Assembly: GCA_014825775.1 (NCBI GenBank)
Contig: MVAQ01000145.1
Location: forward strand, 1-53,785
Direction of reading: 5' to 3'
Source of the DNA: Krasilnikovozyma curviuscula
Taxonomy: Eukaryota > Basidiomycota > Tremellomycetes > Cystofilobasidiales > Mrakiaceae
DNA: 53,785 nucleotides
Shown: positions 2,277-37,294 of the stretch, piece after piece
How the letters are laid out: each line of letters starts with the position of its first letter
Position numbering within the stretch: position 1 is the first letter of the stretch
Notes under the pieces: generated by a model
What the model saw: the letters and a program-made list of their open reading frames with translations, nothing else
Told to the model about the DNA's origin: nothing
Database searches by the model: none
Made by a program: the position numbers and the translations under genes

Positions 2277-4835
2277 TCATTCCTTTCTGAATTGTAATAG
2301 CGGAGCTAAGCTGGAAACTGGGCAAGCTTTGGCCAGGAAGTCGTGCTGTGACAAGAACGGATAACGTCAGCCTGAGAGAACCCTGAGATACATTCGAGTC
2401 GTTTCACATACTTGGAGCAGCTCTAAAGCAGTGGCACGAGACTTCACATCGACGCAGAGACAGACTGCAAGGAAACTTTTTAGCTCACCACTGAGTTTGT
2501 CAGGTCGTTTCAAGGTGGGAGTTCCGTTGGTGGCAATTAGATACAGGGCTTTGAGGGGCTCCTCGTCCAGATAGGGTGGTTCACTCTCGATCATCTCGAT
2601 AGCCATAATTCCCAAGGACCAGATGTCTACTTTAGCTCCATACTCCTTTTGTTTGACTACTTCAGGAGCCATCCAGTAGGGAGTTCCTACCATAGTTGCT
2701 CTCTTCGACTTTTCAGATGACAACTTGGCACAGAAACCGAAATCGGCTAGACGATAGTTGTCAAAAATCACGAATGACACAAGCGATACGAGAACTGAAA
2801 GAGCTCACTGATCTTCACTTCTCCAGCAGCATTTAGCAACACATTGTCACTTTTGATATCTCGATGAATGATGCTTCTCTGGTGAAGATGCTCCAAGCCT
2901 TTGCAGGTCTGAAAATAGACATTTTGAGGGAGGTCAGCAAAGAATAACATTGATGGAACCATCCGCACTCACTTCCAGACAAATACTGGCGATTTGATCT
3001 TCAGCCAGCTTGTTATTTTCGATAACATCAGTCAAAGCACCTCCTTCCATGAATTCCATCACAACCCATAGCTCAGAATTTTTGATCAAAAAAGCTTCGA
3101 TGAAGTTGACTACATTTTCATGATGCGATTCCTTCATGACGACGATCTCATTAACAATGAGCTCCTTTCGAGGTTGCTGAGCGAGATCCATTTGCTTGAT
3201 GGCAACTTTACTCCCCTTCTCCAAGGATTTCGCAACAAAGACAGACCCAGAGGCACTATAAAGCAATGATAAGCAAGCAACTTCCAGAGCGGTGTTGTAT
3301 AGTGCTTACCCTTGACCAACTTTCTTGATCTTCGTATATAGAGCTCCAGGATCATTGGGGCTGACAACAGCTCTCAGCTTATCCATGATTTGAGCTTCGT
3401 TCATTGTACTGATTCGCCGTTCGATTTGTTTCGCTGGCGCAGCCACTGATTCTGGGGTGACTACTTTTGTAGAAACAGGTTTCGGGACTGAAGGTGGAGC
3501 GGGCGACGTAGAGCTCTTGGCGGAATTTTGAGTGGCACTTGATTGAGGAACTGGGGGCTGCATTGGCTTGGGAGGAGCTGGGCGATGTTCAGACAGTTGC
3601 AGTGATTGGGAAGAAGCTAGCATGGTAGTAGTTTGCAAGCTGTTGGGATGGTCCGACATAGGATACTGCTACATATAAAGCATCAGAAACAGCATTGGAG
3701 TTCGAGGGGAAAGACGCATATGGTGGAGATACTCACCGAGGTTGGAGCGGCAGATCTAGTGGGAGGTGGGCCCGGCGCTGGACGATGTGGCGCTGTTAAA
3801 GAAGATTTGAAACCGTTTTGCTGCACAGGTGGTCTTGAACCAGTCATATCTGAGCGAGATTGAGAAGGGCTGGGTGTTATGTAAGCTGAAGCTGGGCTGG
3901 AAGGAGGTTGAGTGCTTGCACCACCTAGCCCAGTTCCTGCCCCAAATCTGGCAGCTGGCGGTGTCACACCGGAGGAGACCGATGAAAGAGGCTTCAAGGA
4001 AGAGCCAGATCCATTTATTCCAGGCCGAGCAAGTCCCAGATCGTCGTATTCTCCTGCTCGCTTTTGGATATCTGTATAGAACTCAAGAACCTCCAACACC
4101 GCCTGCGGATCTTTAGCATAGTCCTCTTTGGTGATCGCAGATGAGGTGAGAAGTCTTGTCCATTGCTCCGGAAGACCCTGTAAAGGCGTTCAGCCAACGT
4201 CAGCATCACAATGTCATACTTCACGACCAGGGACGCAGACTTACTGTGAATGCTCCGCTGATGGGGTCAAAACCGACATGAACCTGATGAACAAAGTCAG
4301 TTGGATTACTGACTCCCAGAGGACTTCTATTATATATGTCGTCCATCCATCCATAAAGCTCCTCGTCACTTTTCAGCGCGATGAAGAAAGACTTGTCACG
4401 CGTTGTGATTTCAATACAATAGGGCTTCAGATCCGTTCTCTGGACATTACTGATGTCTTTGAGATATAGGAGAGTGGTCGCTTGTGGAGCAACCTGTATT
4501 CAAGAGAAGAAGCCGTAAGTCAAGAGGCACCGAGAAGACTGGCGCGAGGGCGCGAGCAGATTTCTCACCTCAGACTTTCGAACTACCATCATTTGATCGT
4601 CCAGAACCAACCATTTCTTACTCCACAACAGGAAGCTATCCTTCATGCTCACATATCCTGTTCGGTTGCTATTTGCTCTCTGTTGAGGAGTACTAATAAT
4701 GTTGATTCGTGACGAAAGAGGACTGACGGATTGTTGAGGCACGAGGCGAGAAGAGGATGAGTAGGACGAGGAATAAGACGAGGTACCTGGGGGAGGCGGA
4801 GCAGCTCTGGAAGGTGTCAATGATGGAGCAGCCAT
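2277..4835 (-). CDS. STE20: PAK-family Ser/Thr kinase, STE20/CLA4 type
   Basis: p21-activated kinase acting downstream of Cdc42/Rac in pheromone response, polarity and cytokinesis. Order from the N-terminus: Ser/Pro-rich leader; PH domain (starts near [21 protein letters not shown], ends near [14 protein letters not shown]); CRIB motif with [20 protein letters not shown]; a Pro/Ser-rich linker; then the kinase. The kinase shows [12 protein letters not shown], the Lys in [22 protein letters not shown] in the segment TDFGFCAKL, and the PAK-type activation segment [11 protein letters not shown]. Exon 1 is 4569-4835. The last exon adds [12 protein letters not shown] after a 3' intron and stops at 2277-2279. 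About 650 residues in total. The PH plus CRIB layout fits yeast Cla4. As I recall, the mating-type-linked Ste20 of Cryptococcus also has a PH domain, so the symbol is a best guess between STE20 and CLA4. A STE3 receptor and a pheromone gene lie about 26-33 kb away. Confidence 0.9.
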
Positions 4836-5384
4836 CTGAGTAGAGCGGGTGTTCTGCGGGAACGGGATGAGACGAGAGGGCCCATCAACAAGGAGGTGTC
4901 AGATGGCCAGTCCCCTCTTCTACAGAGCAAAAACTTACCTCAAATCTCAGAAAGATGACAGTTTTCAGTTTGGTGCTATCTGATGATATGGATTGGTTTG
5001 AGAAGCTGCAAGGTGCGTGTTTGTTTCGAGCAGAAAGGGCTGAATGGCTGGAAAAGCTTCAGGGGGCCGAGCAACGATCTTGGACGGAAAAGTCTACTAA
5101 GCTACTACTCCCCTTTGGTTGATGTTCCTTCAGTCTTGTTCAAATACTTCAGGCTGGAGAATGAGGCTGGTTGAACTCAACCAGTAGGGTGTGCTCGATG
5201 AAAGTAGAGGCAGACAATAACTGTGCTCGTAATGGCCAACGCGAAACGCGCAACTCAATAAAGGGAGATTTTGCGAACAAGATTTTTCTTGTCGTAATGT
5301 ATGCAACGAGAGCCACATTATCCTTGCGCTATCTCTCGAATACAGGTTTAGGCCGGAAGCTAAGCAGACTCCCGAGCAACAAAA
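4836..5384. other. intergenic: PAK promoter and PMS1 3' flank
   Basis: Both neighbours are on the minus strand, so this 549-bp gap should hold the PMS1 3' UTR and the PAK promoter and leader. Short open frames here match no family I know. I see no repeat or RNA gene. Confidence 0.4.
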
Positions 5385-8300
5385 TTACATTATTGTGCTC
5401 CACGATAAATTCTCTCTGTTTGACCTCCTTTTCAGCGTAAAATCAGCAGCTGTTTTCAGGCTAGTCAGATGGCGTAGAGTTGGTCGACCATGCGGGCAGT
5501 TCTGGGGCAGTGAGTGAAAGACGATGATGAAGAGATGAAATTTAGAGTTCGAATTTCTTGTGACCTTCTTCCAAAGCACACCACTCACCCATGGCTGATC
5601 TAACTCTCCCAAGTTTTGTACAACCTAAACAAACCGAGGATGGTCGAGCGGGTGAGCTTTTTTTCTCTTGCCATCGAGAATGTGAACAGTGACCTGCACA
5701 AGACTTACAGATTTCATTTGGTTCTGCGTGAGAGCTTTCCCGATCATGACACTTCGTCGACATGCTCTCATTGCAAACATAGTACGAGCTTTGGAGCATC
5801 TTACCATCTTGCCCTTTGGTTGATCTTTCATCAGATGTAGTAGCTCCTCAAAATCTAGACAAGCGTGGTAAATTGAATCAATCTAGTGCCCGACAGGATG
5901 TAAAATAGGATCATTTACCTTTAAAATCGAACGTCGTTTCTTTGCTTACAGGTTGGGCAAGAAGAGAGACCCTCGAGCCGTGAGCGCCTAGGTTACCTTC
6001 ACCTCGAACTGAGACCTCAAAACCGTTTTTCTCTAAGACATCTTTATTTTCTTCTGCAGTGATCTCATCAGCTGGGTTGAGCTCTAACACACGCGGCCTA
6101 GTGATCGCATATGGTATGTATTAGTAGGAGCTACTGAAGTGGAGCCAAGATGTGGTAAAGCGCACCTGATCAGCTTTTGAGACTGAATCTTCGTATTCCG
6201 TTGCAGCGTTTCAAAATTGTACTTTTCGTCGGCTGCGTGCTGATCAATAATGAAAAGATCATCCAATGGGAAGGGTGAATTCTTGAGCTGGCAGTCCGTT
6301 TTGCGAACGATGATGAACCCCAGATTATACTGGCCAATAATGCCCAACCTGCCGAAGTCGGACTTCTTAAGTATGCGGTTCAGAACCTCTTCCGCTTTGA
6401 TACTATCCAAAGATCCGAGTCCAGCCACAGAAATATCTTGTCGATATTGGGACACCTGTGGTAGATGAGCTGGATGTACTTTTTGGGACCACAAGCTCTC
6501 AAGTCGGTTACAGTCCAAGTAGATTGGGCGGTTGCTACCATAACGCCGCTTCTTCGATCTCCTCCTCTCGTCAGTAAGAAGGACTTCACGTTTCACAGGG
6601 GTGGAATGTGTCGAGACTGGGCGATTGGATGAAGCTGAGGAGTCGGCGAACTGAAGGTTCACAGGACTGGAGAGAGACGTATGCGATTGCTGCTGCAAAG
6701 TCATGAAGCGTTCCAACTCAGTTGTCGGCCTAGGACTCACTGGTGGTAGATAAGAGGAGTAATCGTTTTTGAAAAAAGTTAGATTCGCCGCCTCGGAATC
6801 CTCCAGGATGGGAGCGTCAACTAAGACCTGGTCCGACTGATTGTTCCTCTCTGTGAAGGGCGAAGGCGAGCTAGCCCTAGCAACAACCAGGCCTGTCAGC
6901 TTTCCTTGAGTGTATACTGTTGGGCCATTGACCGGAAAGACTGTCTGCGATGTGGAGTAAATATCTTGCAGAGCAATCTGGAAGAAGAGAGAGGTAAACT
7001 TGAAAGCACGACACGAAGATAAAAGCAAATCTCACCTTGAGAGCATCTATGAGTTCATTCTCATACTCCAGGAATATGGTGCGTTTGTCTGGGCTCACAT
7101 TGATGTCGCAGACATCTAAAACGTTCCTCTTCGATCAGAAGGCAATCTACTCACTCTCAGTTGAAAGCTGACCTACCAGTGGGCATTTCAAAATTAAGAA
7201 TGCTGACGGGATACTGATTCAAGTGAAGCGTTTTGTAGGCTTCATTAATGACCTTTTGTACCTGATTTGGAAGTTAAGAACTACACGTTTGATCAGAAGT
7301 ATTAACGAACGTACCTTAGGTAAATTGCACGGTCTGCAATTGATGTAGCAATACTGACGATCAGTTGAAGATCTCCCAGATCCTGCCGATGGGGAAGACA
7401 TGACACCCGACACTTCAACCTCAATAGGGCTACACATGAGGTAAGATTAGTCTTAGCGGAGGTCCGTCATTGTCGATTTGAAAGTACATTATTCATTGGC
7501 CACGAACTTACTTTTTATGAGCCTGCTTTTTGTTGATATTGAGATTCAAAGTGTGTTTGATGTCCATGAGAGATTCTATCGCTTTCGGACCCCAAAGCGT
7601 TGATAGAGAAGATCGCAAAAGGGGTTGACCCTCAGTCTGAAGGTGAGTCAATTTCTTTCTAAAGAAATAAAAGAGAAAAATAGGCACAGATTTGGGGACA
7701 CATTTTAGAAAAACCTGCTCAGTCTCGCTCACCCTTTTTTAGAGATGGATACCACTTTCAACCTCACACCAGGAACAGTTGCAGCGGGTACAAGAGCATA
7801 CGCACAAAGGAGGCTCAAAGCTTTACTAAATTCTCTCTTGGCGTTGGTTTCAAATTCCTTTCTTCGCACCGCCGTTGGAACGAACAGGCCACGAAGCAGT
7901 ATTGTCGTTCCTCGCTACGGAGCCAAATCAAGATCAGTCAATGAGGCAGAATAGAATAAATTATATTAGGAAACACAGAACTCACAGTCCTTGCTGCTTT
8001 TTCAGAGCTGCTAATCATCTCACCTTTCCTATTGAACTGTAATACAGTACCCATCGGAGCCTCTTCCTTCGTAGCGGTGGTCACGATGACACTCTCACAT
8101 AGAGCACACAGGGAGGAGAGAGCTTCACCCCTAAACCCGAGAGTTCTTACTGAAGTGAGATCAGCGAAAGTGGAAAGTTTCGAGGTGTGGTGTCTGAGTG
8201 CTGTTGAGAGAGTAAGCATAGTTTCCATACATCGGTATGCTTAATGAGATTTGTACTTACCAACGCTAGCGTAATCAGATCGAGATATTCCAGAACCATT

Positions 8301-8542
8301 GTCAATCACTTCAAGCGATTCTGTGCCATTGTCCTTAAAACGAATTTCTGAGAGAGCGCAAGGCGTTCAGTGCCCTTGTCTCTGAGAGCTTTACCTGTCG
8401 GCACATACTCACCAATGTTCGTAGCACCAGCATCTATCGAATTCTCTACCAGTTCCTTAACGGCACTCTGTAAATCTATCACGACTTGGCCTGAGGTGAT
8501 ACGGTGGACTGAGCCATTGTCGATTCTGTTGATGTGAGCCAT
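5385..8542 (-). CDS. PMS1: DNA mismatch repair endonuclease PMS1 (MutL homologue)
   Basis: MutL-alpha subunit orthologous to yeast Pms1 and human PMS2; nicks DNA in mismatch repair in the nucleus. The start at 8542 reads [24 protein letters not shown] ATPase motifs are all visible: [22 protein letters not shown] and [12 protein letters not shown]. The C-terminal endonuclease motif DQHA-x2-E-x4-E is intact as [12 protein letters not shown] near 6200. The zinc-binding parts ACRRSVMIG and [12 protein letters not shown] are both present near the C-terminus, so the nuclease is probably active. The gene has many short introns; the last one splits GELDQPW from NCPHGRP (donor near 5590, acceptor near 5507). 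It stops at 5385-5387. A Ser/Thr-rich linker of several hundred residues, usual for the family, joins the two halves. Divergent to the small membrane-protein gene at 8943. Confidence 0.93.
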
Positions 8543-8942: not shown

Positions 8943-9552
8943 TTGCCCCAGATCGAAATGAAAGACTCTTGTCCTTCAGATTTGCTCCTTCGAAGTTTAG
9001 CCTTAATCTCAGCTTCTCCCTCTCCGTCTCCACTTTTCCAAGCCCCAGCCGCTGATACATCAAGCGAAAATAGTACACGATCGGTGGGCTTCAGCTATTT
9101 CCAACTTATTTCAGACATGCACTGACGTTACACTGGTTGAAACTGGCAGGCTGTTCGATGGGCCGTACCCGTCGCGATCTTCGTGCTCGTATTTGGGGTT
9201 GGAGGTGTCGTCTTGAGGTGAGACTTGCCATCTGCTCATGGTAATCCACTGATCTCTGAGAATTTTATATTCTTGCGGTAGAATTCAACAGGTTCGCCGT
9301 CGACGCTCTGCCATAGCGCAAGGGTCTGCTATCCCTATGACATACCCACGCTCTCGTCCAACCTACGCCGACTTCAATCCTGATGAGACCTCTGAAGCTA
9401 TCGCAGCTGTACTTCCACGATCTGGCACTCGAGGCGATAGTGTCCTCCCTACTGGTCAAAGGGTGGGTGCAAACGGCCACGACGGTCTCCCAGCGTACGA
9501 ATCAACGAGGAGGACAGGCCTGCCTACATATTATGAATTGGGAACTACTTGA
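8943..9552 (+). CDS. small single-pass membrane protein with LPxY motifs
   Basis: Function unknown. Three exons (8943-9083, 9150-9217, 9282-9552) join in frame to about 159 residues. Residues 1-47 are Ser/Pro-rich. They are followed by one hydrophobic segment (AVRWAVPVAIFVLVFGVGG) of membrane-spanning length and then a basic stop-transfer run (RIQQVRRRR), which predicts a short N-terminal lumenal or extracellular part and a cytosolic tail. The tail carries LPAYES and LPTYYE near the C-terminus, resembling LPxY/PPxY motifs bound by WW domains of Rsp5/Nedd4 ubiquitin ligases. An adaptor or cargo role for ubiquitin sorting is inference from these motifs only. The exon structure is convincing because the frame is open only after splicing and the membrane segment falls in one exon. 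Confidence 0.62.
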
Positions 9553-10331: not shown

Positions 10332-12416
<2,085 letters not shown>

Positions 12417-13053: not shown

Positions 13054-13839
13054 TGTTCTGCCCTGCTCGCGAGAAAGCTCAAATTCGCGAAGGGTGCAGC
13101 GACACCCCGCCCTCCTCGCGAGAATATGTCTTATTTATTTTGTAATTTAATTTCATTTCATTTGACATTAAATGAACCAGTTTGGACCATAGTGTCAACT
13201 GTGGTGTACTCAGTCAAAGTAAGTATTAAAGAACAATATTTTCCATTGTACATAGTCGCATTGGGGTAAAGGGAAAAAAGTACAGATGTGTTCTGCCCTA
13301 GTCGCGAGAAGTCGCCGCTCGCGAGGACGGGTTAGCGTCCCACTGCCCAGTCGCGAATTTTCGCCACTGGACTAAGTCTGTTAAACTCTTATGCCTTCCC
13401 GCTTTCGAGGAGGACACTACTTCATATGCAGTATTGAGACCTATCTGACGTTACGACGCTCCTCCTGTTGTCCAACCATTCTCAGAAAGCTTTGGCGTTG
13501 AATTTCTGGCATGGAAGGGCATTCAACCTGCTTAGAATCAGTGGTTTCGGACGCAGGCAGAACACGCTCAACTTTTGAGGATTCTTTTGTCACAATACCC
13601 CTGAAATTTCAAACTGCCCTTTCCCTATTCAATCTTGAGAGAACCTTTCACCAATTCCTTTCAAGCCCCTCTCTAAGGGAGTCAGCTCACGAACTGCTAA
13701 AACATGAAGCTGGATTAGAGGTGAATGACAAACCGAAGTTAGATAATAAATTAATAAAATGGTGGTTGTACTCCTCGCGACGTAGCTGCCCTCGGCCCCT
13801 CCTCGCCAATTTGAGCCTTCTCGCGACTGGGGCAGAACA
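13054..13839. mobile_element. non-autonomous inverted-repeat element (MITE-like), 786 bp
   Basis: The ends are imperfect terminal inverted repeats of about 40 bp. The left end reads TGTTCTGCCCTGCTCGCGAG; the right end, reverse-complemented, reads TGTTCTGCCCCAGTCGCGAG. Both continue into a GCTCAAATT block. A 3-bp AAT flanks both sides (13051-13053 and 13840-13842). Removing the element plus one AAT restores a minus-strand reading frame across the junction. There is no transposase. A further copy of the terminal motif lies inside at 13290 and several CGCGAG boxes are scattered within, suggesting a composite or nested structure. I cannot assign a superfamily. Confidence 0.65.
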
Positions 13840-13842
13840 AAT

Positions 13843-14203
13843 GTAACATCGCTTGCTGGAATCGATTGATAGAAGTCGGAATCGGAATTCATCACACCAG
13901 CAGTAGCGGCAGTCTCCTTCGTCTCCTTGACCTTCTCTCTATTGGTCTCCCATATCTCTAAGGACTCATGCCCATGTGGTATAGTGTTGCTGAATTGGCC
14001 ACGACAGTTAATCTTTTGGTGGCCAAATTTCAAGCACTTGAAGCATCTTTTGGAACCGGGAAGGTTGAGGTTGGTACGATCGTTGGGGCCGGCTTTGGTG
14101 CTATGGAAGAACTTTGTTCTTCTGCCTCCATCTTCTCCTCCTAAATCCATGCTCACAAACCGAGCAGCGAATGCAGCATCTTTCTTTTCGTTCTCCTCCC
14201 CAT
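13843..14203 (-). pseudogene. copia-type gag fragment with CCHC zinc knuckle (outer element, downstream half)
   Basis: This is the C-terminal half of a retrotransposon gag. It carries a zinc knuckle CFKCLKFGHQKINC (C-x2-C-x4-H-x4-C) preceded by a basic stretch. Its upstream half lies on the far side of the 4.8-kb inserted element, at 19015 to about 19371. Reading across the insertion with a single copy of the 5-bp duplication gives a continuous frame (QIAHG joined to EENEK). It is interrupted on the other side by the inverted-repeat element. Confidence 0.75.
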
Positions 14204-14379
14204 CTTGAGAACTGGATGGACAGAACTCTTAAGTGACCCACGTTCAAGGAAAGCAGATGGGGTTCTGGCCACCTCAGGTGAAAAATCTAATTTATTTACG
14301 GCGGATAAAATATCAGGCGCTCTGACCTTTTGGATCGGAGGCGCAATCGAGTCACTTTCAACCTCCCCTTGTTCTGACG
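14204..14379 (-). repeat. 3' LTR of the copia element
   Basis: 176 bp, same sequence as 18839-19014 by eye. The pol frame reads into and through it. It contains the palindrome CACCTCAGGTG. Confidence 0.9.
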
Positions 14380-14390
14380 TTCCCCCTTGA
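14380..14390 (-). other. polypurine tract
   Basis: On the element strand the sequence CAAGGGGGAA sits directly before the 3' LTR, the expected place for plus-strand priming. Confidence 0.65.
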
Positions 14391-15735: not shown

Positions 15736-15739
15736 ATAA

Positions 15740-17632: not shown

Positions 17633-17652
17633 CTCCTTGAGTAAAAGAGAGC

Positions 17653-18804: not shown

Positions 18805-18826
18805 GGTCGACGTGAAAATTTGCTTT

Positions 18827-19866: not shown

Positions 19867-19869
19867 TCA

Positions 19870-20050: not shown

Positions 20051-20051
20051 G

Positions 20052-20370: not shown

Positions 20371-20377
20371 TCTAACA

Positions 20378-20699: not shown

Positions 20700-20702
20700 T
20701 TG

Positions 20703-22585: not shown

Positions 22586-25500
22586 ATGAGTGACATCTCT
22601 GTACTGCTGGTCAACTCGCTCTCTCCTGGTAAGCTTTATCTGTGCGTGGAATCCATAGCACTGATCAATTACTGACTTGTTCTGTCTTATGTTGCTCTGC
22701 TTTATTAGATGCTCATGCTCGACAACACGCAACAGAGCAGTTGGAAATCTTCTCAAGCACCAACTTCGTATGTTTCTTGTTCTACATACACTCGCAATGC
22801 CGCTGAGAACGCTACCTCTAACCTCAATGGTGAACATTCCATTTAGCCTGGTTATGTTCAAGCACTTTCAATTGAGCTGGCAAAGGAGGATGCTCCATTG
22901 GACACAAGAAACGCTGCAGGTTTGGCACTGAAAAACGCTTTGAGTGCAAGAGTGAGCAGAACGGACAGTTCTCTTTAGACCTATAACTATCAACATTTTG
23001 TTGACAGATTTTGTTCAACAGGATTTCACTCGTCAAACTGAATTCACCCAGAGGTGGCTCTCCCTCGACCTCAGCGTCAAGCTTCAAGTCAAGCAGAACA
23101 CCATGGTTACTCTTGGCTCTCCAACAGTCAGAGCTGGTTCTGTAGCTGCCCAAGCTGTGTCTGCAATCGCTGCCATTGAGTTGCCTGCCGGTGATTGGCC
23201 TGAGCTTATTGGATTGCTTCTCCAGTTTGTGAGCAATCAGGAAAATACTGGCTTGAGGATTGCCACTCTGCAGGCCCTTGGTTTCATCTGTGAAGTCATC
23301 GTAAGTATCTGCATCACTACTATGACGATAAAGTCGCTACGTATAGTACCCATTCTCACCCTAACCTCTTTCACCGTGCATAGCGACCAGAGGTTCTTGC
23401 TAGTAGATCAAATGAGATTCTCACCACGGTCGTGCAAGGCGCTCGGAAGGAAGAGCCAAGTTCAGAGGTCCAAATTGCGGCTATCAACGCTTTGTACAAC
23501 TCGCTGGAGTTCATTAGAGAGAATTTCGAACGAGAGGTCAGCAACTTGTTGGATTTGCCAGTACAATACCAGTGCTGACTTTGAACTATACTAACACAGG
23601 GCGAGCGAAACTATATCATGCAGATTATCTGCGAAGCAACACAAAATGCTTCTGTCCCCGTCGTGGTGGGAGCTTTCGAATGTCTCGTTAAAATTATGCA
23701 GCTTTACTACGACAAGATGGGATTCTATATGGAGCGAGCTTTGTTTGGGGTAAGTTCGTTAACACTTTGGGTCTCGCTCTATTGATGTTGATTGATTGTT
23801 CATGGATTCGGTGTTGCTTAGCTTACCGTCCTCGGTATGAAACACAACGAAGAAACGGTCGCGCTACAAGCTATTGAGTTCTGGTCCACCGTATGTGACG
23901 AAGAGGTCGAACTTGCCGTCGAGGCTGCCGAGGTGATTGGGCCATAATGTTCATTGGCGAAGTGGTTCTCTTACGCTGACCTTCCCTTTGCCTCCAGGCC
24001 GCTGAATTTGGTGAAACTCCTGAGCACGAGAGCAAAAACTTCGCCAAGATTGCCTTACCTGAAATCTTACCAGTTCTTCTTCAACTCCTCACTCAGCAGG
24101 AAGAAGATGCTGAAGATGATGAGTGGAATGTTTCGATGGCTTCTGGAACATGTCTCGCTCTGTTGGCTCAGACGGTCGGAGATGACATCGTCTCTCCTGT
24201 CATCCCGTTTGTGGAAACCAACATTAAGGATCAGAGCTCTGATGGCTGGCACAAGCGTGAAGCTGCTGTAATGGCATTTGGCTCAATTCTTGATGGCCCT
24301 GACCCTAAAGTTCTCGCTGCACTTGTTGCCCAAGCCCTCCCAACACTGATCGAGATGATGAGGGATCCAAACGATCACGTCAAGGATACTACCGCCTGGA
24401 CACTTGGAAGGATATCCGACATCCTCATTGATACTATCAAGCCAGACGTTCATCTTCCTCAGCTGATATCTTCCTTAGTGTTTGGTCTTAACGACAGCTC
24501 CAGAATTATCGCCAACTGCTGCTGGTCCCTCATGAACTTGGCTGAACAACTGGGATGTCCACCATCTGAAAATCCGCCGCTCCCTACAAGCAGTCTTTCG
24601 CCTTTCTATGACGGTATCGTCTCTGCTCTTATGCAAGTCACCGAAAAATACAAGTAGGTCTATTCGTGACTTGGCTTCGGCTAAGGTTCCTCTCTTCACC
24701 AAGACTCATTGTTCCCTTGCTCCTCAGGAATGCGAACGAGTCCAACGCAAGGACATCTGCATATGAAGCATTGTCAACTTATGTTTCTCAAAGTGCCGCC
24801 GATACCCTTCCCACGGTCTCGCATATCGCACTTGCGGTTCTGGCCAGAATGGAAAGCTTAATCTCATTACAGGTTAGACCTTTCTAATTTGACTTCTTTT
24901 CAGGTCGTATGTATGCTGATACACACACCTCCGTCTTTAGAACCAGATCGTTGGCTCTGATGACAGAAACAATTGGAATGAGTTGCAAGGAAACCTATGT
25001 AGCGTTGTCACCGTACGTCGCCCTTTTGTCTTGTCGTTTTTGGTTGGCTGAGTTTAGGTTTTTTTCTGCAGAGCATCATCCGCAAACTTGGCAACGAGAT
25101 ACGTCCTTTAGCAGATCGTATTATGACCGTTCTGCTTCAACTCTGCCAGGGAGCTGGCAAGCAAGCGACTGTTTTTGAAGATGCTCTTCTCGCCATCGGT
25201 TCTCTTTCTTCCGGTATGCTTGACCTATTCTCATTAGCTGCACTAACTTTAATTGCTCACAAATTGGCCATATTCACAGCCCTGGACCACGAATTTAGTC
25301 CCTACCTTGAAGCGTTCCTTCCCTTCCTGTTCACAGCTTTGCAGGCTCAAGAAGAACCACAACTCTGTTCTATTGCTGTAGGCTTGATTGGAGATATCTG
25401 TCGTGCTTTGGGAGATCAGAGTGCACAGTACTGCAATCAATTCATGACCGCGCTTTTGACCAACCTTCAAAGCCCAGTTTTGAACCGAAGTGTCAAACCT

Positions 25501-26172
25501 CCGATCCTTTCTTGCTTTGGTGATATTGCTCTCTCAATCGGTCCAGCGTTCCAGCCCTATCTAGACACGACTATGACAGTGCTCCAGCAGGCAGGCCAGA
25601 TGACTCCTGATCCAGTAAGTCTATCTCATGTTTCCAACACCAAGTTCTTGAAACATTAAAACATGCTCAATTTTCATGGGTTTTAAGACCTCTTACGATC
25701 TTGTAGAGTATGTCATGAGTCTTCGTGAGGGCATCATCGAGGCGTACGTTGGTATTGTGTCGGCCTTCAGACAGAGTGGACAAAGTGAGTATGCATTCAT
25801 ACCCATGTATAATGGTGTAGGCACTGACTGGATTGATCAAATATTCAGATCAGATTCTTCCCTATGTTCCTGGCATGCTGGCATTTTTGCAGCTAGTGAT
25901 GGAGGACGAGGACCGCAGCGAAGCCATCATACGTGGCTCTCTTGGGCTCATTGGTGATCTCAGTGAAACCTTCTCTCATGGTGAAATTAAGACACTGCTC
26001 CTAGCGGAATGGATTTCTTCGGCATTGAAGTTAGGTCGTCGAAAGGGAGTTAGTCCTGAAACACGTCAAACTGCCAAATGGACGAAAGAGGTGAGTAAAC
26101 GTTGGCTCACATTGATTTAAGACCTGGCTAACCCTCGGACCTTTCTAGCTCCTTAAGCAGGCTACTGTTTAA
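22586..26172 (+). CDS. KAP95: importin subunit beta-1 (karyopherin beta, Kap95)
   Basis: Nuclear import receptor for importin-alpha/NLS cargo, built of HEAT repeats. About 15 exons join to about 865 residues, the normal length. Sequence tracks yeast Kap95 throughout: LKNALSAR then [58 protein letters not shown]; the acidic loop [46 protein letters not shown]; and [19 protein letters not shown]. The exon 3/4 junction needs the acceptor in TTCAACAG (not the nearer GACAG) to keep frame. The last exon encodes LLKQATV and stops at 26170-26172. KAP95 is a recorded neighbour of STE3 in P/R regions of some basidiomycetes. Upstream lies the transposon island; downstream it converges with MRD1. Confidence 0.96.
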
Positions 26173-26349: not shown

Positions 26350-29018
26350 TCATGACAAGGTCACTCCCGTCTTTCGCAAGAGCTTGCTGTCTCCCTGCGA
26401 CATGCTGACCTTTTCCCTCATCTTCGCTATGTCTGTGTCGTCCCCATCCGCCCACTCTAAAACCAAATGACGTCCAAGCAAATGAGTGTGCTTCAAAGCA
26501 CTGAATGCCGCTTCAGCGTCTCGGCGAGACACGAACTCCAGGAAAGCAAACCCTCGAGCCTTAGTATCAAACTTTCGTGGCAATCTCACAGATTTTACTT
26601 GTCCGTAAGCACTGAGCGAAAAGAATTTCCTGTTAGGAATCGTCTTAATCAGCGAGTGAAGTCAAAATGGACTAACTTGAACAAATCTTGAATGTCCTTC
26701 TTTGTGGCCTCAAAAGGAATATTTTTAACCATGATCTTAGAGCTTTTCCCTTGAGATATGGTATCCCCTGTAGCATAGTTTAAGTCTCCATTTCGTTGCG
26801 AGAATTGTACCTCCAGCTTGTGCCCGTCCAGCAAAAACCCATCCATCGTTTTCAAAGCACTTTCGGCAGCTTCAGTATTCTTGAATCCTACAAAGCCAAA
26901 TCCAAGACTCAACCTTCCTGAAGACTTCATATCTGGTTTGGTCTGAACCTGGGCGAATGTGAAGAATGGAAGATGGCTGAAAGCATCCGAAAGGCGCTGC
27001 GTCGTAGTGGAGAAGTTTAGATTTTTTACAAAGAGCGTCGTTCCAGTCGCTGGACGGGTGTCTGAAAGTGAAGATGTGGTTTTTGTGGTCGTTGAAGTAG
27101 AGTTCAAAGTCGGTTTGTCGTTGTGAATTGGTCGAGTCGTCTTTGAATGGGGGAGCGCTGGAGAGAACAGACCGTCAGGAGCCTTTTCGAGGTAGAGAAT
27201 CGAGGTACCTAGTCGTCTGTAAGCTAAAGACTTGAATGCAGATTCAGCAGATTGGTGGTCTGTAAATTCTACCAACGCGATTGTGCCAGCTGGGGGGACC
27301 AAGAGTCGAGATATGTTGCCATGTGCGGAGAACAGTTCTGTTAGTTGCGAAAGTGATGTTCCATAAGACATGTTCTTAACAAGAATAGTAGTTGAAGATC
27401 GAGATCTTGAGGAAAATGCGTCCAGATTGACGCCCTCCTGTAGCATAACTCCAAAGCGATCAGTTATAAAGTAGTTGAGACTGGCCGATTTGATTCGGAA
27501 CTTACTTCCTCTAAGTATCTTTTCGTTTCTTCGATGACATGAGTTTCAGCAAGAGCCAACTTTACAGCAGGGTTATCTGAATCTGCACCAATCAAATCAG
27601 CTTTGCTGAGCTTCATGCGGTCTGCAACAGAATCGACTACCGCATCGCTCTGGAAATATGCAGAAAGGAAGGTCAGTGAATGAGAAACCGGCATCAATTA
27701 GAGTCGCCATGCTTACATTCATATACAGCATGGCCCAGTTAAAATCTTTACCAGCTTCAGTTCTTTTTTTTTGCTCCTTTATCGCCTTCGCACTGACGGC
27801 ACCGCCAGTCGAGGGCATTGATTCCCTTAATTTCTCACGTCCTGGAAGGATGTGTAGAATTCGGCCTTGGAACGTTTGCCCATCAAGGGTGTGTAAAGCC
27901 GATAACGCTTGTGTCGCAGTTTTGAACTGGATGAACGCAGTGCCTAAAGGTTGGCGCGTTTGGACTCCTACTGGGAGGTGGATCTACATGAGGTGGGAGG
28001 CGAATTATTTGATGAAAACAAAAATGGACTTCAAGTGAATAAAAAGTTAGACGAAGTGTACAGTGAGGGCTGACCTCGACAACTTCCCCGAACGGCTCCA
28101 TAAGCGATCGCAACTCCCGCTCTGTGACTGAAAACACAAGATTTCTGAGAAACAACCGAGCAGTGAAGGCAACAATTTGATCCGGCTAGGATTGGTTGTT
28201 CTTCAGAATTAGTACAAGTTACAGACTGAGAGCAATGACCAAACTCACATCTTCCTCTCCCACCTCATTGACAGAGCTGTCCTGATACAAGACCGGATCC
28301 ACTTTACCATCTTCGTCTTCCTTCATGTCTGTCATTTTACTCTTCAACCATTCAGAATCATCGATTGGAGGTGTCGCAGTTTCTGTAACGTTGTCATCTT
28401 CTGATTCTGAATCTCTAAGTGGGTGTGACGTTTCATCACCAGACTTCTTCGCATTCATCACGGACGCGTAAGCTGCAAACGATTCGTCTCCTTTAACCTT
28501 TGACTTGTTCTTGCTCTCTAATTTTATACGCTTGTCCTGATTTTGAGTATCTCGAAAGTCGGATTGCGGGACGGGACGCTTCAGGCTATTTGCCTGAAAG
28601 GATTCAACCGAGATACAATTAGAAAGTGGCTGGTAAAAGGAGCCACCAATGAGACTAAAGATTCTTACTTGATCAACGAGTTCGCAACTGATTCTTCCTC
28701 CCCCTAACCAGGTGCCGTTCCACCAGTGGCATGCTCTGGCGGCGTCGTCTGCAGTTTTGTACCCAACAAAAGCAAATCGTCTCTTGGGATAGATCTTGAG
28801 GTCTGTGATACTACCAATTGGTACCAGTGAGGTCGATGCAGTTGCAGCAGGAGGGGTCGTGAGGTGAGTTCTGAGGGAAATTAGGTCGACGGACGAGGGA
28901 AGGTTCGTGATAATAACTCTGGTAGACCTGCAAATGGAGAAATTATGAACGTCTGCGAGTCAATGTTGTTGTAAATATTGAATAGAGGGGAAGGAGAGAG
29001 AGAGAGTTTCTTTTACAT
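26350..29018 (-). CDS. MRD1: five-RRM pre-rRNA processing factor MRD1
   Basis: Nucleolar RNA-binding protein of the early 90S pre-ribosome, related to yeast Mrd1 and human RBM19. Five RRMs are visible: TRVIITNLPSSVDLISLR; LFLRNLVFSVTERELRSLM; TTILVKNMSYGTSLSQLTEL; TTLFVKNLNFSTTTQRLSDA with LGFGFVGF; and KIMVKNIPFEATKKDIQDLF with RGFAFLEFVSRRDAEAA. The C-terminus after the last RRM (ADGDDTDIAKMREK, then LRKTG) also fits the family. A Ser/Asp/Glu-rich linker with a DSESEDDNVTE stretch lies between RRM1 and RRM2. The first in-frame Met appears only if an intron splits the start codon (AT at 29017-29018, G at 28927). Upstream of this there is no ATG in frame before a stop. Divergent to the gene at 29317. 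Confidence 0.88.
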
Positions 29019-29316: not shown

Positions 29317-30305
29317 ATGGTACTACAAAATAAACACAAACGACAAGCTGGGGCGAGATGGAAAAAGTGAGCAGCAGGGAAGCAGAATCAAGGACGTCTC
29401 TTTACTGACCAAGGGTGTCACATTCTTTACCAGAGCTCACGGAATCGCAACGATCTCTGCGGCAAACCAGCATCAGCCCATATCGTTACACGAAAATGAT
29501 GATAGCCAGTCAAAAGCATCAACATATGAGAATGAGAGTGATGGGTCTCTTCCGGATGAAGAACAAGTTGTGGATGGTTTCGACCAGCTAACCCTCCAGC
29601 CCACACCTCTCGAAGCTGCATCAAACAGCCGTATGCCTTTTTCCCTTGAGGAAACCTCTTCGTAAGTATATGATTATTTCGGGTAATTTGAAAATAACGC
29701 TTAGATTTTGTTGGCCTCTGACAGGTCGTCTTCTGACAGAAAGTTCTCGCGACGGAAACTCGTCAGCAATGCCTCAAGATATGAAGAAGAGGAACCTGTT
29801 CTGGACGATCAAGGTACCTAATAAATTTCTGTGTTTTGGCTAGCTCCTTTGCTTATTGTAACAACTTCTTGTAGGGAAACCCATTCTCGAGCTGGAGGCT
29901 GATATCTCTGCATTCCTCTCCCGTCAGAAGCAGAAGAACCCCGGCCTTATCGGAACACCTCAGGAATCAACGGAAGACGATGATGTAGATACATCTTTTG
30001 CACATTTGAGAAAGACGCCGTCCAAATCAACTTCGTCTCGAAGGAAAGTGTCATTGGCCCCGCAGCAGAGGGCAGAAAACACCAGCTTAGAAGCTATGTT
30101 AGAGGAAAAGAGACAGGCTGATGCTATCAAAGGTAAGACTTGAAGCGTAAATATCTGAAACCTTCGCTGACAAGTCTCTTGTTTCTTGTCAGCGTTGAAA
30201 TTGAAGTTCTCCTCGAAGAACCACGCGACTCCAGTCGGGATTACGCCCAGATCCACAACAGCTTTTATTCAAGACTTAGATGACTTCTTGGATAGTGTAT
30301 CTTGA
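29317..30305 (+). CDS. unrecognised small basic/acidic protein
   Basis: No family recognised. The start MVLQNKHKRQAGARWKK is followed by a 67-nt intron ending TTTACCAG that restores frame into AHGIATISAANQHQ. Three more introns (donors near 29660, 29811 and 30132) keep frame to the stop at 30303-30305. The product is about 260 residues, hydrophilic and probably disordered. It has a basic N-terminus, an acidic centre (DEEQVVDGFDQLTLQP), a SRRKFSRRK-like basic patch, a possible coiled coil (LEAMLEEKRQADAIKALKLK) and an acidic aromatic tail (FIQDLDDFLDSVS). A nuclear role is a guess from composition. Convergent with STE3, 91 bp away. Confidence 0.6.
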
Positions 30306-30396
30306 TGTTTGTAACTGTGGGTTCGCCCCTTACTTTCGGAGGAGCTAGTATCACTGGGCGAAAGTATTTGAAAGAGCAAAGCTACACATCCAACAT

Positions 30397-31771
30397 CTAC
30401 ACTATCTCTCTCTCAACTTTCACGTTGATGCACGTTCCCGGAGACTTGCTCGTATCTCTATCATGAGATTGAGCGGAACTTAGATCTTGGAATAATTCAC
30501 CTTCCTGAAGTCTCTGGTCATGATCTTTTCCGGCGTGGTAAGCAGAAGCGATCGCATATCCTAGATTTGGGATAGGCGCTCTGTTCAAAAAAAAGAAAAA
30601 AAAAAAAGAAAGAAGAAACTCAGCATGCTTGGTTTATTACTATTTTTTATTTTTATTTGATTTTGGTGTTAAAAGAGAGGACTCACGCTACCTTACTGTC
30701 ATTTGCATTCGAGGACTTCGTGACCTTCGCATACACCCAACAGACTAGGAGGTGGTATTGATCTAGTGTTTCTTCTTGGAATCCAAAAAAGACCATATAA
30801 AGGAATGCCGAAAACACGGGGACCCAGCGTGACAGCGAGTAGGACCAGGCGTTGTATTGAGGGAGCCCAAGATCGAAACCAGTAATGTATCTGATGACAG
30901 AGTATTCGTAATGAACTTCATCCCAGGTGTAAATTGGCTGGAGCTTTTTAGCGTAATTGATCAAGAGATATATCGAAACGGCCAAGGTGACAGAAACAGA
31001 GACGGTTGCGAACAACGCGAGACGAATATATTTGTTGTTATTTAGACACTGTGGACTACCTCTGAGCAAAGTCTGGAGTTGTCTGCGTCGAGAAAGGAAG
31101 AAGTAGACAGATCTCCCTTGTTGATGCATAGTTGAGTATCGGAAGGAAGTAAAACGTAGAAAGGGTAATTCACCTCCATAGATCACCGCAGCCAACGCAA
31201 AGAGCACGGGAGGGAGCGCTACTCCGAGCAATGAGGGCACTTCAATCCAGATAGGTTCAGTAGGACCATATCCCTCGACTATGTTGTACCTGTTTGCCTG
31301 GACTAGGTAGGTCACTAACATAAAGAAGATGGTTGTGGGGATGTTGATGGCCAAGTCGATCCAAAAAGCCCAATTCTGTGCTGTCCGACTCACACTGGCA
31401 TTTTTGGAAGACGCGATGATCGATAGTCTTCGGTTGATGGTAAGGCTGGCTAGAATCAAACCGATATTGGCGCCTCTTTGGATTTTGATGGCTTTTTTAA
31501 ATGTAGGAAGAGATCAGTCCTAATCAAGCACGAGTGAGTACGTTGATCATGAGATAAAAAATGTCTCACTGATATCACACCAGACTGTTGCTGTATTATG
31601 ATAATTGTCCCACCAAATTATACTGTTTATGAATCCTTTCATATTGACGGCTTGCAACCACAGGATCATAAAGATAGCTCCAATGTTGCGAGCCCGGAAG
31701 TGAGGGAAGCTGCCACAGAAGAGATACAGAATGCTAAAGCCAGAGAAGACGGTAAAAGCTGTGTCGTGCAT
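30397..31771 (-). CDS. STE3: STE3-type mating pheromone receptor (GPCR)
   Basis: Seven-transmembrane receptor for a farnesylated pheromone, a plasma-membrane determinant of mating type. The start MHDTAFTVFSGFSILYLF leads into family-typical SFPHFRARNIGAIFMILWLQ, then FINSIIWWDNYHNTATVWCD. The first intron must end at TTTAAAAAAG, so that CDI joins TIKIQRGANIGLILA; this reproduces the family spacing before LTINRRLSIIAS. Later blocks include VPSLLGVALPPVLFALAAVI, QQGRSVYFFLSRRRQ, LPQYNAWSYSLSRWVPVFSA and FLYMVFFGFQEE. A last intron adds a hydrophilic cytosolic tail ending VKVEREIV. An ACAAAGGGA box lies 145 bp upstream. The pheromone gene lies 3.5 kb away. It could be a non-mating-type STE3 paralogue, but linkage to a pheromone gene argues against that. 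Confidence 0.93.
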
Positions 31772-32258
31772 ATGCTGAAGAGGGCGAGTGTATGGAGATG
31801 GAAAGGTTGTAGTGAATGTGAAGGTATACTTCGAAGCGAAGTTGTTGGCTTTCTTAGCTTAATTAAGAGGAAAGTAGGACAACAGTCGCTTTTAAGCAGT
31901 TTGTTTGGATTTACAACAAAGGGAGGGGTTTCGGAGCCCATGACAAGACAACACTCTGCCCAGAAAGCGAACAATAGAAAATGTTCCCTAAAACAATAAA
32001 TTTACTTAGTGGCAAAACGCACAATACGAAAGCAGAGCGCAGATCCTCAGCTTATTTGCACGCGGTGTTCTCATCTCATAAACCCAGAGAACGGCTGCTT
32101 TTGTCGATGGAACGCCCCAAGCTCCCCGATCGATGCAAATGGCGCATTGGGTACTGGGTCCCTTCAGCGCTGAAGCGTCCTTGGATGAACAAGAAAGTGT
32201 ACAGGTCCAAGAATTTCAGAACGATTTATCTCTCGTTCCCTTTCGTGGTTAATCTTGA
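31772..32258. other. STE3 promoter region and orphan-exon 3' flank
   Basis: 487 bp upstream of STE3. Besides the ACAAAGGGA box I see no gene. A minus-strand open frame (31666-31974) overlaps the receptor start in another frame and has no family match. Confidence 0.45.
31916..31924 (+). promoter_or_regulatory. pheromone-response-like element ACAAAGGGA
   Basis: Exact match to the 9-bp pheromone response element bound by the HMG-box factor Prf1 in Ustilago maydis. It sits 145 bp before the STE3 start codon. Short motifs occur by chance, so position is the main support. Confidence 0.45.
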
Positions 32259-32504
32259 CTAAACGACCTGGTACTGTCCTTCATTACTCTGCGCGACCCA
32301 TATGTCTCCTCCTTCGCCGCAATCTCTACCATCATCCCACTCAGCATTCTGTAAGGAGGAAATAAGTTTGAAAGGGGGAGTGAAGGGAAGGGTGCTGAGG
32401 TGGTTGTTTACGTGAAGCTTTGGATGCTCATTATGAAGCTGGTTTATCATCAAATCCAAACGTGACTTTGCGAATTCCTCTAACGCTTGGCAATGCTTTA
32501 CATA
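32259..32504 (-). other. orphan 3'-terminal exons (two)
   Basis: Two exon-like blocks with good splice signals: 32412-32504, preceded by a pyrimidine-rich acceptor ending TTTTTGTCAG, and 32259-32348, preceded by TCCTTACAG. They join in frame to 60 residues (YVKHCQALEEFAKSRL at the start, then AEWDDGRDCGEGGDIWVAQ) and a stop. They lie 3' of the DAHP synthase stop. The first block could be reached in frame from the DAHP synthase exon ending LQTLNE by a ~180-nt intron, which would make an alternative C-terminus, but the sequence does not resemble that family. They may instead be the tail of a lost or displaced gene. The second exon has a diverged copy at 35461-35605. Confidence 0.5.
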
Positions 32505-32589
32505 CTGACAAAAATGAGAAAAAGTACAAATGCACCTCATAACCACAAAGTGCAAAAAAGGCAGTATTAACGCTGCTTAGTTGCGTAGT

Positions 32590-34821
<2,232 letters not shown>

Positions 34822-35217
34822 GTTTGCGTGGTAAATGAGACTTCTCTTCGTTTGCTACCACATACGTCAGGCCGTTTATCATTTCAAATCACAAGAAGAG
34901 GATTGGGCAACCAGAGGATAAAGGACACTCACAGTGAGTGAAGAGTTTGGGGGCGCCGTGACTGCTTACCATCTCCCGGATGACTCGTATTTTACTCTAG
35001 TTTTTTGCTGCAAGCAACGCCACGACCTGCGTTTGGGCACTGCATCTATGCGAGAAGGGTCCGCCACTGCCGCACCTTCCTAAAGTCGCTCAAGAAGCTA
35101 AGACGTCTGATTTTTGTTTTCGCAAGACTGTCGTAGTGAATCATTGGTAGGGCTACTTTAAGGAGCAAATCGGGCTTGCAACGCTCTCTTTTCTTTCGTT
35201 TAGTGCAGACAATGGTG
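34822..35217. other. divergent region between DAHP synthase and the pheromone gene
   Basis: No gene seen. Promoter of DAHP synthase on one side and upstream region of the pheromone gene on the other. An ACAATG box, the core of HMG-type mating factors' sites, lies at 35209-35214. Confidence 0.4.
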
Positions 35218-35223
35218 TATATA
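35218..35223 (+). promoter_or_regulatory. TATA box of the pheromone precursor gene
   Basis: TATATA 90 bp before the ATG at 35313, a suitable spacing for a highly expressed short gene. Confidence 0.5.
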
Positions 35224-35312
35224 GAGAAGGTTCAGCCTACTGATCCTATCGTTCTCTTCTTCATATACTCCAAACCCACTCTCACTCCCAAGCCAAGCCT
35301 CACTCTTTTACA

Positions 35313-35417
35313 ATGGAGTCCTTCTGCACCACCTTGTCCGCCTCTGAGCAGACCATCGCTCAGCTCCAGCTTCCACTCGCAATGGCACTGGTGACATCGG
35401 TCTGTGTCATTACTTAG
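35313..35417 (+). CDS. MF1: lipopeptide mating pheromone precursor
   Basis: A 34-residue open frame too short for most gene finders. It begins MESF, close to the MD-x-F starts of other basidiomycete pheromone precursors. It ends SVCVIT followed by a stop: CVIT is a textbook CAAX box (Cys, two aliphatic residues, Thr) for farnesylation, trimming and carboxymethylation. In known precursors the mature pheromone is a short C-terminal peptide ending at that Cys; I see no obvious cleavage signal in this one. It lies between two housekeeping genes, 3.5 kb from the STE3 receptor, with its own TATA box. Only one copy was found in the window. The alternative, a chance CAAX-ending frame, is unlikely given the start motif, length, promoter and linkage. 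Confidence 0.82.
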   Translation: MESFCTTLSASEQTIAQLQLPLAMALVTSVCVIT

Positions 35418-35460
35418 AGCTGAAAACTCAACCGATTGTACTCTCATCGTCATGCTTGAT

Positions 35461-35605
35461 CTCGACTGAACGGCCTTGTACCGTCCTTCTCATCTCCGTC
35501 GCGACCCATATATCTCCTCCATCGCAGCAATTTCTACCATGATCCCACTCAGCGTTCTTTCAGGAGGATATAGGTTTTGAAAGGGGGAACGAGGGGAATG
35601 GGTAT
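35461..35605 (-). pseudogene. diverged duplicate of the orphan last exon
   Basis: About 145 bp, roughly 80% alike by eye to 32258-32400, covering the intron end, the exon and its 3' flank. The exon frame still reads NAEWDHGRNC then GGDIWVA but loses the shared end and stop. It lies between the pheromone gene and CAF1, in the same orientation as the original. Confidence 0.65.
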
Positions 35606-35858
35606 TTGTCTTGCTTCTTACGATAATGGCTTTTCGCGAAACACAACAAACTCTCGAGTCATGGCCTGACATCAAGTGCTCAACATGACCGACTCTACCA
35701 CATAAGTCGAGACGTGCGATTCAACAACAAACTTGCAGTTCTTGAAAAAATATCGATAATATACGCATGACTTGACAAGTACAAAACTGACTACGTAGTA
35801 AGATGAGCGGACTAAACTTATCTTCGATCAAATGTAAACGGCAAAAGAAAGTAAGATA

Positions 35859-37294
35859 TTACTTCGTCGGGCGATATGTAGGGGAGCCTTTTCCGAAGCC
35901 ATATAAGTAGTTCCTGAAAGATGTGATGGCAAGTCAGTTGGAAAAGCAATACGTAACAACAACGTGATGAAACATTGTCACGGGATGACGAAGGGAAAAC
36001 GTACCTGTAGAACTCATCATCGAGTTTGTTCTCGAAGAACTCTTGTCTCATTGCGAAGAAGGTGGATGATGTCAGAAGCGAATCACTTCCTGCCTGATGC
36101 TGAGGGCCGACTCTGGTGACCTAGCAAAAGGAGATAGGAATAAAGATGAAGAACGTATCAGCCTTTTCAGGAGACGTTGGGAAAGGTTTATAAAGACCAC
36201 AACTCATCACGTACCTCCAGGGTATCTGCAACTTCTTGCAAACCACCCTTGAGAGTCTTACAACTTCTCATGATGTGTTTGATGTCGTAAAAGTTCGGGA
36301 ACCAGGTTTCCAACAGGTCAAAGAACTCGGTTTCTGATGGTGGTAATGGAAGGTTTGTGAGAAGCCGTATTAGATATCCGAAATCGTACCCGCTGTCAAG
36401 ATGTGTAAATTGAAATTAGATAGTCGCTCAGATACCATACACACCGAGCTGAGACTGCGGATATCAAGAAAATAATAATAAAAAACAAAGTAAAAAAGAG
36501 ACGACTCACGAGTGGAATGATATCCATTTCACTTCTTTAAACAATACTAGTCCACTCGTAATCAAGTATTCACCGAAGAGTTCCAGATCGATTCCCTCGT
36601 TTTCAAACCTCTTGAAATCAATACCAGATTTTGTCAGAAGGTCTATGGATTCCTGAGAATACATGTCCTCGCTGAGAGGCCAGTTAATGGGTCGAGCGAG
36701 TTGAAGGAGAAGCAGAGACAGTTGCGTCAGTCTTTTGTCTGGTGTCCCGACATTGGTAACAACCAAATCATTTAACACTCACGTCAAACTGAACCTGAAG
36801 TTGAACTGCCAAGTACCATTTTCAGGTACTCTGCCATCCTCATCGGCCAGTGTTACCCCAAGCTGTATTAGCCGCAGGATATCGACGTTAACTCTCATAG
36901 TTTGATAGTGGTAATCAGCTCCATGCCTGAAGGACCCTAGGGGGCGAACGACCACTCCTGGGAACTCAGTATCCTTTAGCAGTAGAAACAGAAGAGCATT
37001 TAATGAAGGAGTAAGTCAGTGACGACCAGCGAGAGTAAAAAAATAGGCAAGCCAAGGAGCTCGGAGTAGAGAAGACGTACCCTTTCATAGAGGAATACAA
37101 AGTATCACAAAGTCAAAAAGAGGAAACAATAAAGATGATCAGTGACCGTTCCAAACAGCTCCCTCTGCTGCAGCGGCGACGTGGGACGAGGCTTACATCG
37201 AGACCATGGGGTACTCCTCTATCATTGCTCTTAAACTCATCAGCTCCTCCTCCAGGTTTGAGGCCCATACTTCTCGAATGCCATGGCCTGCCAT
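35859..37294 (-). CDS. CAF1: CCR4-NOT deadenylase CAF1/POP2
   Basis: DEDD-type 3'-5' exonuclease that removes mRNA poly(A) tails. The start at 37294 reads [18 protein letters not shown]. Catalytic motifs: the D-x-E of [47 protein letters not shown]; and [13 protein letters not shown]. The C-terminal block reads [12 protein letters not shown] joined to NYLYGFGKG, then SPTYRPTK and a stop at 35859-35861. Length about 280 residues, typical of the minimal nuclease. Exon 1 (37197-37294) ends in AT and the next conserved exon begins GATACTGAG (from 36973). The Met codon before the catalytic Asp can only be completed by one G, offered by a 1-nt exon at 37081 flanked by AG and GTACGT. Confidence 0.93.

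Follow-up and report, generated by a model that had tools for sequence, protein, structure and literature searches.

A probable pheromone/receptor mating-type region with a STE3 receptor, a candidate CAAX pheromone gene and an unusual gene neighbourhood in Krasilnikovozyma curviuscula

STE3 receptor and candidate pheromone precursor

The window analysed here is the entire contig C50 (MVAQ01000145.1; 53,785 nucleotides, 54 kb) of the Krasilnikovozyma curviuscula genome assembly GCA_014825775.1, which comprises 22.4 Mb in 387 contigs. It carries a gene for a STE3-type pheromone receptor and, 3.5 kb away, a short open reading frame (ORF) ending in a CAAX motif, a pair that led a preliminary description to propose a pheromone/receptor (P/R) mating-type region at 2277-37294. 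Gene models came from a simple gene finder, for which long open frames had served as training set, and were checked by Pfam and protein searches. The features at the centre of the region are the following.

30397-31771, minus strand: STE3 pheromone receptor, 377 amino acids (aa); exons 31771-31570, 31491-31174, 31116-30687 and 30580-30397
31916-31924, plus strand: ACAAAGGGA, exact copy of the pheromone response element known from smuts, 145 bp before the STE3 start
32243-32392, plus strand: copy B of a repeat of about 150 bp, between the DAHP synthase gene and STE3; 81% identity to copy A
35313-35417, plus strand: candidate pheromone precursor of 34 codons, MESF...CVIT-stop, 3.5 kb from STE3
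35450-35601, plus strand: copy A of the repeat, directly after the pheromone ORF; 81% identical to copy B in an alignment of 152 columns

The three introns of the STE3 model were picked by hand. Residues 9-294 of the predicted protein align to positions 2-292 of the 292 positions of PF02076 (233 bits, E = 4.7e-69) and a simple hydropathy scan found seven hydrophobic segments, as is expected of the seven-helix receptor of a basidiomycete P/R locus. A draft of 396 aa had kept an in-frame stretch of 57 nt; with this spliced out as an intron, the Pfam score rose from 211 to 233 bits. Across the first junction the protein sequence is CDITIKIQ, compared with CDIVIRIQ in one relative. Judged from its sequence, the gene looks intact. 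It also appears divergent, its closest listed relatives being at most 33% identical: a first search with the 396-aa draft returned three matches (best 31% identity), a profile search returned 152 matches at 1e-10, with the best 120 of the 152 at 26-33% identity, and the PDB held no sequence match to the draft, a query that retained the intron. The recognisable named relatives among the matches listed were Agaricomycetes, and many others were unnamed. Allele typing by relatives was rejected, the matches being uninformative on a1 or a2 type.

In a genome search the window copy was the single match to the STE3 family in the assembly, and no second copy of 30300-37400 was found. It is thus very improbable that the gene is a non-mating receptor-like paralogue, comparable to CPR2 of Cryptococcus, with the true receptor outside the assembly: with its 387 contigs the assembly is possibly incomplete, but this gene is the sole STE3-family match in the genome, has a pheromone response element upstream and is linked to a CAAX ORF. 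The upstream element, ACAAAGGGA, is the pheromone response element of PMC3248468 (papers are cited by PMC number, for the excerpts covered). It is the one exact occurrence of this 9-mer in the window, where 0.54 are expected and 43 of 100 shuffled sequences hold at least one, so that only its position is notable and not its presence. The 150-bp repeat contains no exact copy.

The candidate pheromone precursor translates as MESFCTTLSASEQTIAQLQLPLAMALVTSVCVIT, followed by a stop, and is preceded by a TATA-like element and a CT-rich leader recognised by eye. Under a strict definition of the terminus (C[VIT][VIT][ASTC]-stop) it is the sole ORF of 25-60 codons of its kind in the window, compared with 0.07 per window in simulated sequence of equal composition (any in 14 of 200 runs). 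When the start motif M[DE]xF was added, post hoc, to the strict terminus, none of the 200 simulated runs gave an ORF. With a still wider definition, six ORFs of 20-150 codons were listed. The candidate has no Pfam family match and no other match in the genome by protein, and by DNA only the flanking repeat recurs; these searches detect nothing but its close relatives and would have overlooked an unrelated pheromone gene elsewhere.

Both copies of the flanking repeat lie in the window and the genome search found no third. A second pheromone gene at copy B was considered and rejected, since no CAAX ORF is present there and the homology ends with the repeat. By analogy, copy B possibly marks the place of a second pheromone gene that has since been lost, the interpretation given to a similar orphan repeat in Rhodotorula graminis (PMC3236058).

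Homeodomain genes and the proposed mating system

The homeodomain (HD) genes lie on another contig. C181 carries a divergently transcribed HD1/HD2 pair (30-5322 of the stretch examined; Homeobox_KN 54.6 bits, Homeodomain 31.7 bits), the starts of which are approximate because the two models overlap there by 29 bases. The gene next to the pair presumably encodes a proteasome lid subunit. The HD1 gene of C181 was the one match in a genome search with PF05920. A search with PF00046 reported four other homeodomain genes, on C173, C224, C330 and C355, and was not exhaustive, as the HD2 gene of C181, with its split homeodomain, went unreported.

One STE3 gene, one HD pair and one pheromone match are the set expected of a haploid basidiomycete, and we tentatively infer a tetrapolar-type arrangement, the two contigs, of 27 kb (HD) and 54 kb (P/R), being too short to show whether the loci are linked. 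The proposal of a P/R mating-type region held up: a single STE3 gene was found, it is linked to a strict CAAX ORF unmatched elsewhere, the HD1/HD2 pair is on a different contig, and a search of the assembly for another STE3 gene or another match to the pheromone ORF found none. We conclude that the genome looks haploid-like and that this region is likely to be its P/R mating-type locus.

Gene functions and compatibility rules are those that we infer from these assignments. The STE3 gene would encode the receptor, and the CAAX ORF a lipopeptide pheromone addressed to partners of the other type. In the standard pathway a pheromone precursor is farnesylated at the CAAX cysteine, trimmed and exported, and the product of this ORF would accordingly be farnesylated at the cysteine of CVIT before trimming and export. 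STE3 would sense the pheromone of a partner, and a G protein followed by a PAK/MAPK cascade would carry the signal to an HMG factor able in turn to raise STE3 expression via the upstream response element.

Several observations weigh against the region being a working P/R locus of this kind. All comparisons were made within a single genome, a scope that does not cover allele divergence between mating types. The sole STE12-type gene found (PF02200) lies on C319, near 100 kb, and not on C50, which covers only 54 kb around the locus; the ancestral core inferred for Cryptococcus and Kwoniella includes STE12 within the locus (PMC12510652). Two of the three STE3 introns (31117-31173 and 31492-31569) have AAG acceptors, which account for 6 of 95 in the models of nine other window genes and are hence unusual but not unprecedented here. 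The PAK kinase gene near the left end of the window has a paralogue on C343, so that either of the two may correspond to the mating-type STE20 of other fungi. No exact ACAAAGGGA lies upstream of the pheromone ORF. With a loose CAAX definition the window holds one ORF and 1.4 are expected by chance (any in 150 of 200 runs), so that the loose motif alone proves nothing and the case for the pheromone rests on the strict form and the linkage to STE3. The ORF also contains no pair of neighbouring charged residues, where N-terminal processing usually takes place (PMC8545103), and its codon use changes along its length. Codons 1-18 speak for the ORF, with a GAPDH-like codon index of 0.658, the value of codons 3-14 being reached by 1.7% of 5000 random windows, whereas codons 19-30 (35367-35402, the mature-peptide part) have an index of 0.142, which 97% of 5000 random windows exceed. 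In another frame codons 19-30 read PASTRNGTGDIG with an index of 0.58, a value that is not striking by itself, since 6% of random windows and, within four coding genes, 3-14% of windows attain it. The index is rough, with GAPDH alone as its reference, and was inspected post hoc; the switch possibly reflects old compensating shifts, an assembly error or chance. A CVIT ORF lies 3.5 kb from STE3 as a candidate for the tightly linked CAAX precursor of a P/R locus, and the active peptide is uncertain, because a charged processing site is missing and the last third is better coded in another frame.

These properties bear on two alternatives. If the CAAX ORF were a chance ORF, a frame-damaged relic or the product of an assembly error, and the real pheromone gene had been missed, the poor in-frame codons of the last third, the good ones in another frame and the missing Pfam match would be accounted for, and the genome searches would not have detected an unrelated gene elsewhere. 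We consider this improbable, as the strict form is expected 0.07 times by chance, the CAAX motif, the stop and the MESF start are intact in one frame, and the ORF has a TATA-like promoter, linkage to STE3 and a flanking repeat as at pheromone genes of Rhodotorula. It also seems unlikely that the species is homothallic or that its receptor no longer needs a processed pheromone, a reading put forward for Cystofilobasidium capitatum, in which an equal genotype and a missing processing site are described (PMC8545103). The 34-codon ORF without an adjacent charged pair and the finding of one STE3 gene and one HD pair would agree with such a life cycle, but a heterothallic haploid would carry the identical gene set, and the mature part, given its odd codon use, may be misread and not lost.

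Neighbouring genes and gene order

The other features of the window to which we refer are listed below.

2277-4835, minus strand: PH-CRIB PAK kinase of STE20/CLA4 type, 700-aa model (Pfam PBD 82.8, kinase 246.8, PH 28.6 bits)
5465-8542, minus strand: MutL-type mismatch-repair protein (Pfam DNA_mis_repair, HATPase, MutL_C); start set by eye, C-terminal part uncertain
10446-12416, plus strand: GAPDH (Pfam Gp_dh_N and Gp_dh_C); start set by eye
14204-19014, minus strand: Ty1/Copia-type element with interrupted frames (Pfam integrase core, RVT_2) and identical 176-bp ends
19358-20804, unstranded: shorter repeats adjoining the Copia element, repeat families D1/D2
22586-26172, plus strand: KAP95 importin beta, 59-63% identity in the best 120 of 3174 matches
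26350-29018, minus strand: protein with four RRM stretches (Pfam RRM_1)
29317-30305, plus strand: gene-finder model without Pfam match
32590-34821, minus strand: DAHP synthase, between STE3 and the pheromone ORF (Pfam DAHP_synth_1, 302.9 bits); start set by eye
35859-37294, minus strand: CAF1/POP2 deadenylase (Pfam CAF1); upstream exon read from the sequence
39503-46372, plus strand: APC1 (Pfam), beyond the interval 2277-37294

Leaving aside smaller models without Pfam support, the order from left to right is CNOT11 (+; 26.5 bits against a Pfam cut-off of 25.9), PAK (-), the MutL-type gene (-), GAPDH (+), the Copia element and repeats, KAP95 (+), the four-RRM gene (-), the model without Pfam match (+), STE3 (-), DAHP synthase (-), the CAAX ORF (+), CAF1 (-), an MMgT-type gene (+), APC1 (+) and a dual-specificity phosphatase (-). 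We take the MutL-type gene to be PMS1 and the four-RRM gene to be MRD1, names that no database match gives. Pfam or protein searches bore out the presence on the contig of STE3, PAK, KAP95, GAPDH, CAF1, DAHP synthase and APC1, all named in the preliminary description, which had wrongly placed APC1 inside the region. The scans found no tRNA (with the bacterial code) and no Rfam match in the window. Between PMS1 and GAPDH, a model at 8958-9552, inspected by eye, predicts a small single-helix membrane protein with tyrosine-containing motifs in its tail, and another at 38287-39010 (-), with the MMgT-type gene on one side and APC1 on the other, has no Pfam match.

Many of the 120 KAP95 matches listed (8000 candidates scored) are named importin-95. 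A FastTree phylogeny of the window KAP95 with 24 sequences hand-picked from these 120 placed it between Agaricomycetes and a group of Wallemia and Microbotryomycetes; the tree contained no ascomycete outgroup and no recognised Tremellomycetes, Dacrymycetes or Ustilaginomycotina. The only call we make from this tree, together with identities of at most 63% among the matches listed, is that the lineage appears isolated.

The PAK gene lies 26 kb from STE3. Three further genes with a PBD were found in the genome. The one on C343 (about 43-46 kb) encodes a second PH-CRIB kinase (PH 32.2, PBD 81.2, kinase 192 bits), of which the PH-PBD part is 62% and the kinase part 50% identical to the window kinase, C43 encodes a PBD kinase in which no PH domain was seen by eye in the part examined, and the gene on C333 combines WH1 and PBD. 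C343 was rejected as a second P/R region: within the roughly 20 kb examined, the PAK paralogue is the sole gene in common with the window.

The Copia element is bordered by a duplication of 4-5 bp, (C)CCAT. On contig C261 (1972-2689 of the stretch examined) its flanks (13828-14203 and 19016-19362) adjoin each other, at about 95% identity, and several other contigs carry copies of its 176-bp end. Because its ends are identical and its flanks contiguous on C261, the insertion looks recent, and the element seems, from these sequence relations, to have entered an older dispersed repeat. C261 was also considered as the other mating-type allele and rejected, its first 6 kb matching the window in the repeat region only.

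Extent of the mating-type region

The mating-type-specific segment would span at least about 5 kb, from STE3 to the pheromone ORF, and it is about as likely to be confined to this core as to form a wide block. We give slightly less than an even chance to a segment made up of the STE3-to-pheromone core only (about 5 kb, 30.4-35.4 kb), in which case PAK, PMS1, GAPDH, KAP95, MRD1 and CAF1 would be freely recombining flanks and the Copia element an unrelated insertion. The recent look of that insertion agrees with such a core, as do the single STE12-type match on another contig and the P/R locus of Cystofilobasidium capitatum, which may itself be limited to the pheromone/receptor core (PMC8545103). 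Against it, and for the region as a P/R locus, stands the presence of PAK and KAP95, which other P/R loci also hold: the joint chance that KAP95 and one of the two PH-PAKs both lie within 30 kb of STE3, estimated simply from positions, is about 1.4e-5, a figure that overstates the surprise because PAK and KAP95 were chosen after the finding had named them.

The Copia locus also argues against the narrow core, though mildly at most. RVT_2 gave 11 matches on six contigs (a lower bound), from which we assumed eight genomic loci, and on that assumption any given 35 kb would hold a Copia locus with a chance of about 1%. The transposon island of the preliminary description does exist, with Copia and repeat sequence at about 14.2-20.8 kb, but the argument that repeats had accumulated under low recombination is weakened by the identical ends, which indicate a recent insertion; a single recent-looking element is evidence neither for nor against suppressed recombination.

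Comparison with known P/R loci

A STE20 gene in or at the P/R locus is described for Tremellales, Trichosporonales, Leucosporidium and red yeasts (PMC6730849) and for tetrapolar Cryptococcus and Kwoniella (PMC12510652), and a CLA4-type kinase for Naematelia (PMC13085929). A close resemblance, with the pheromone ORF and the PAK of the window as candidates, is to the Sporidiobolales red yeasts Sporobolomyces salmonicolor and Rhodotorula graminis (PMC3236058), which have STE3 and CAAX pheromone genes, a region of about 50 kb and short repeats at the pheromone genes. In the excerpts of that paper STE3 adjoins RibL18ae, RibL6 or LSm7, and in S. salmonicolor STE20 and KAP95 flank the pheromone gene RHA2. 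In the window, by contrast, 18 kb separate PAK from KAP95, a stretch that holds PMS1, GAPDH and the Copia element, and DAHP synthase stands between STE3 and the pheromone ORF.

A similar set, with linked STE3, CAAX pheromone and STE20-type PAK genes and with the HD genes separate in the tetrapolar species, is found in Cryptococcus and Kwoniella (PMC12510652), whereas STE12, part of the inferred ancestral core there, is on another contig here, and the excerpts of PMC12510652 do not name KAP95, PMS1, GAPDH, MRD1, DAHP synthase or CAF1 for that locus. Cystofilobasidium capitatum (PMC8545103) resembles K. curviuscula in its one STE3 gene, its one HD1/HD2 pair on a different scaffold and a precursor without an N-terminal processing site, but two identical 41-aa pheromone genes flank its STE3, whereas one 34-aa gene was found here. 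With the a locus of Ustilaginales (PMC3248468) the region has in common the response element ACAAAGGGA within a P/R locus; the border genes described there are others, and the single exact element here stands before STE3.

Among the papers covered by the literature search, which excluded most subscription journals and was aimed at KAP95, karyopherin or importin, STE20 and DAHP synthase (not at PMS1, GAPDH, MRD1 or CAF1), only PMC3236058, in the excerpts covered, linked KAP95, karyopherin, importin or DAHP synthase with STE3 or receptor mating terms. The suggestion that the layout is undescribed therefore stands in part: this arrangement was not found in the literature searched, but linkage of STE20, KAP95 and a pheromone gene is known from S. 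salmonicolor (PMC3236058). As P/R gene order varies between lineages anyway, the layout is new in detail as far as searched and ordinary in kind.

With STE20 and KAP95 on either side of a pheromone gene in a yeast of the Pucciniomycotina, some of this neighbourhood may be of ancient origin. In a tentative scenario, to which we give about one chance in three, PAK and KAP95 beside the receptor and pheromone genes would be an ancestral piece of the P/R locus common with the Pucciniomycotina red yeasts, which predated the split of the subphyla and was lost or reshuffled elsewhere, while DAHP synthase was gained between STE3 and the pheromone gene and a second pheromone copy was lost, with a repeat left as its trace. 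P/R gene order is used to infer the growth and fusion of fungal sex-determining regions, and a lineage whose listed KAP95 relatives do not exceed 63% identity, but in which PAK, KAP95, STE3 and a pheromone ORF are still found side by side, would help to separate ancestral P/R genes from those captured later by inversions. It also offers a case in which the processing or the reading frame of a pheromone is in doubt.

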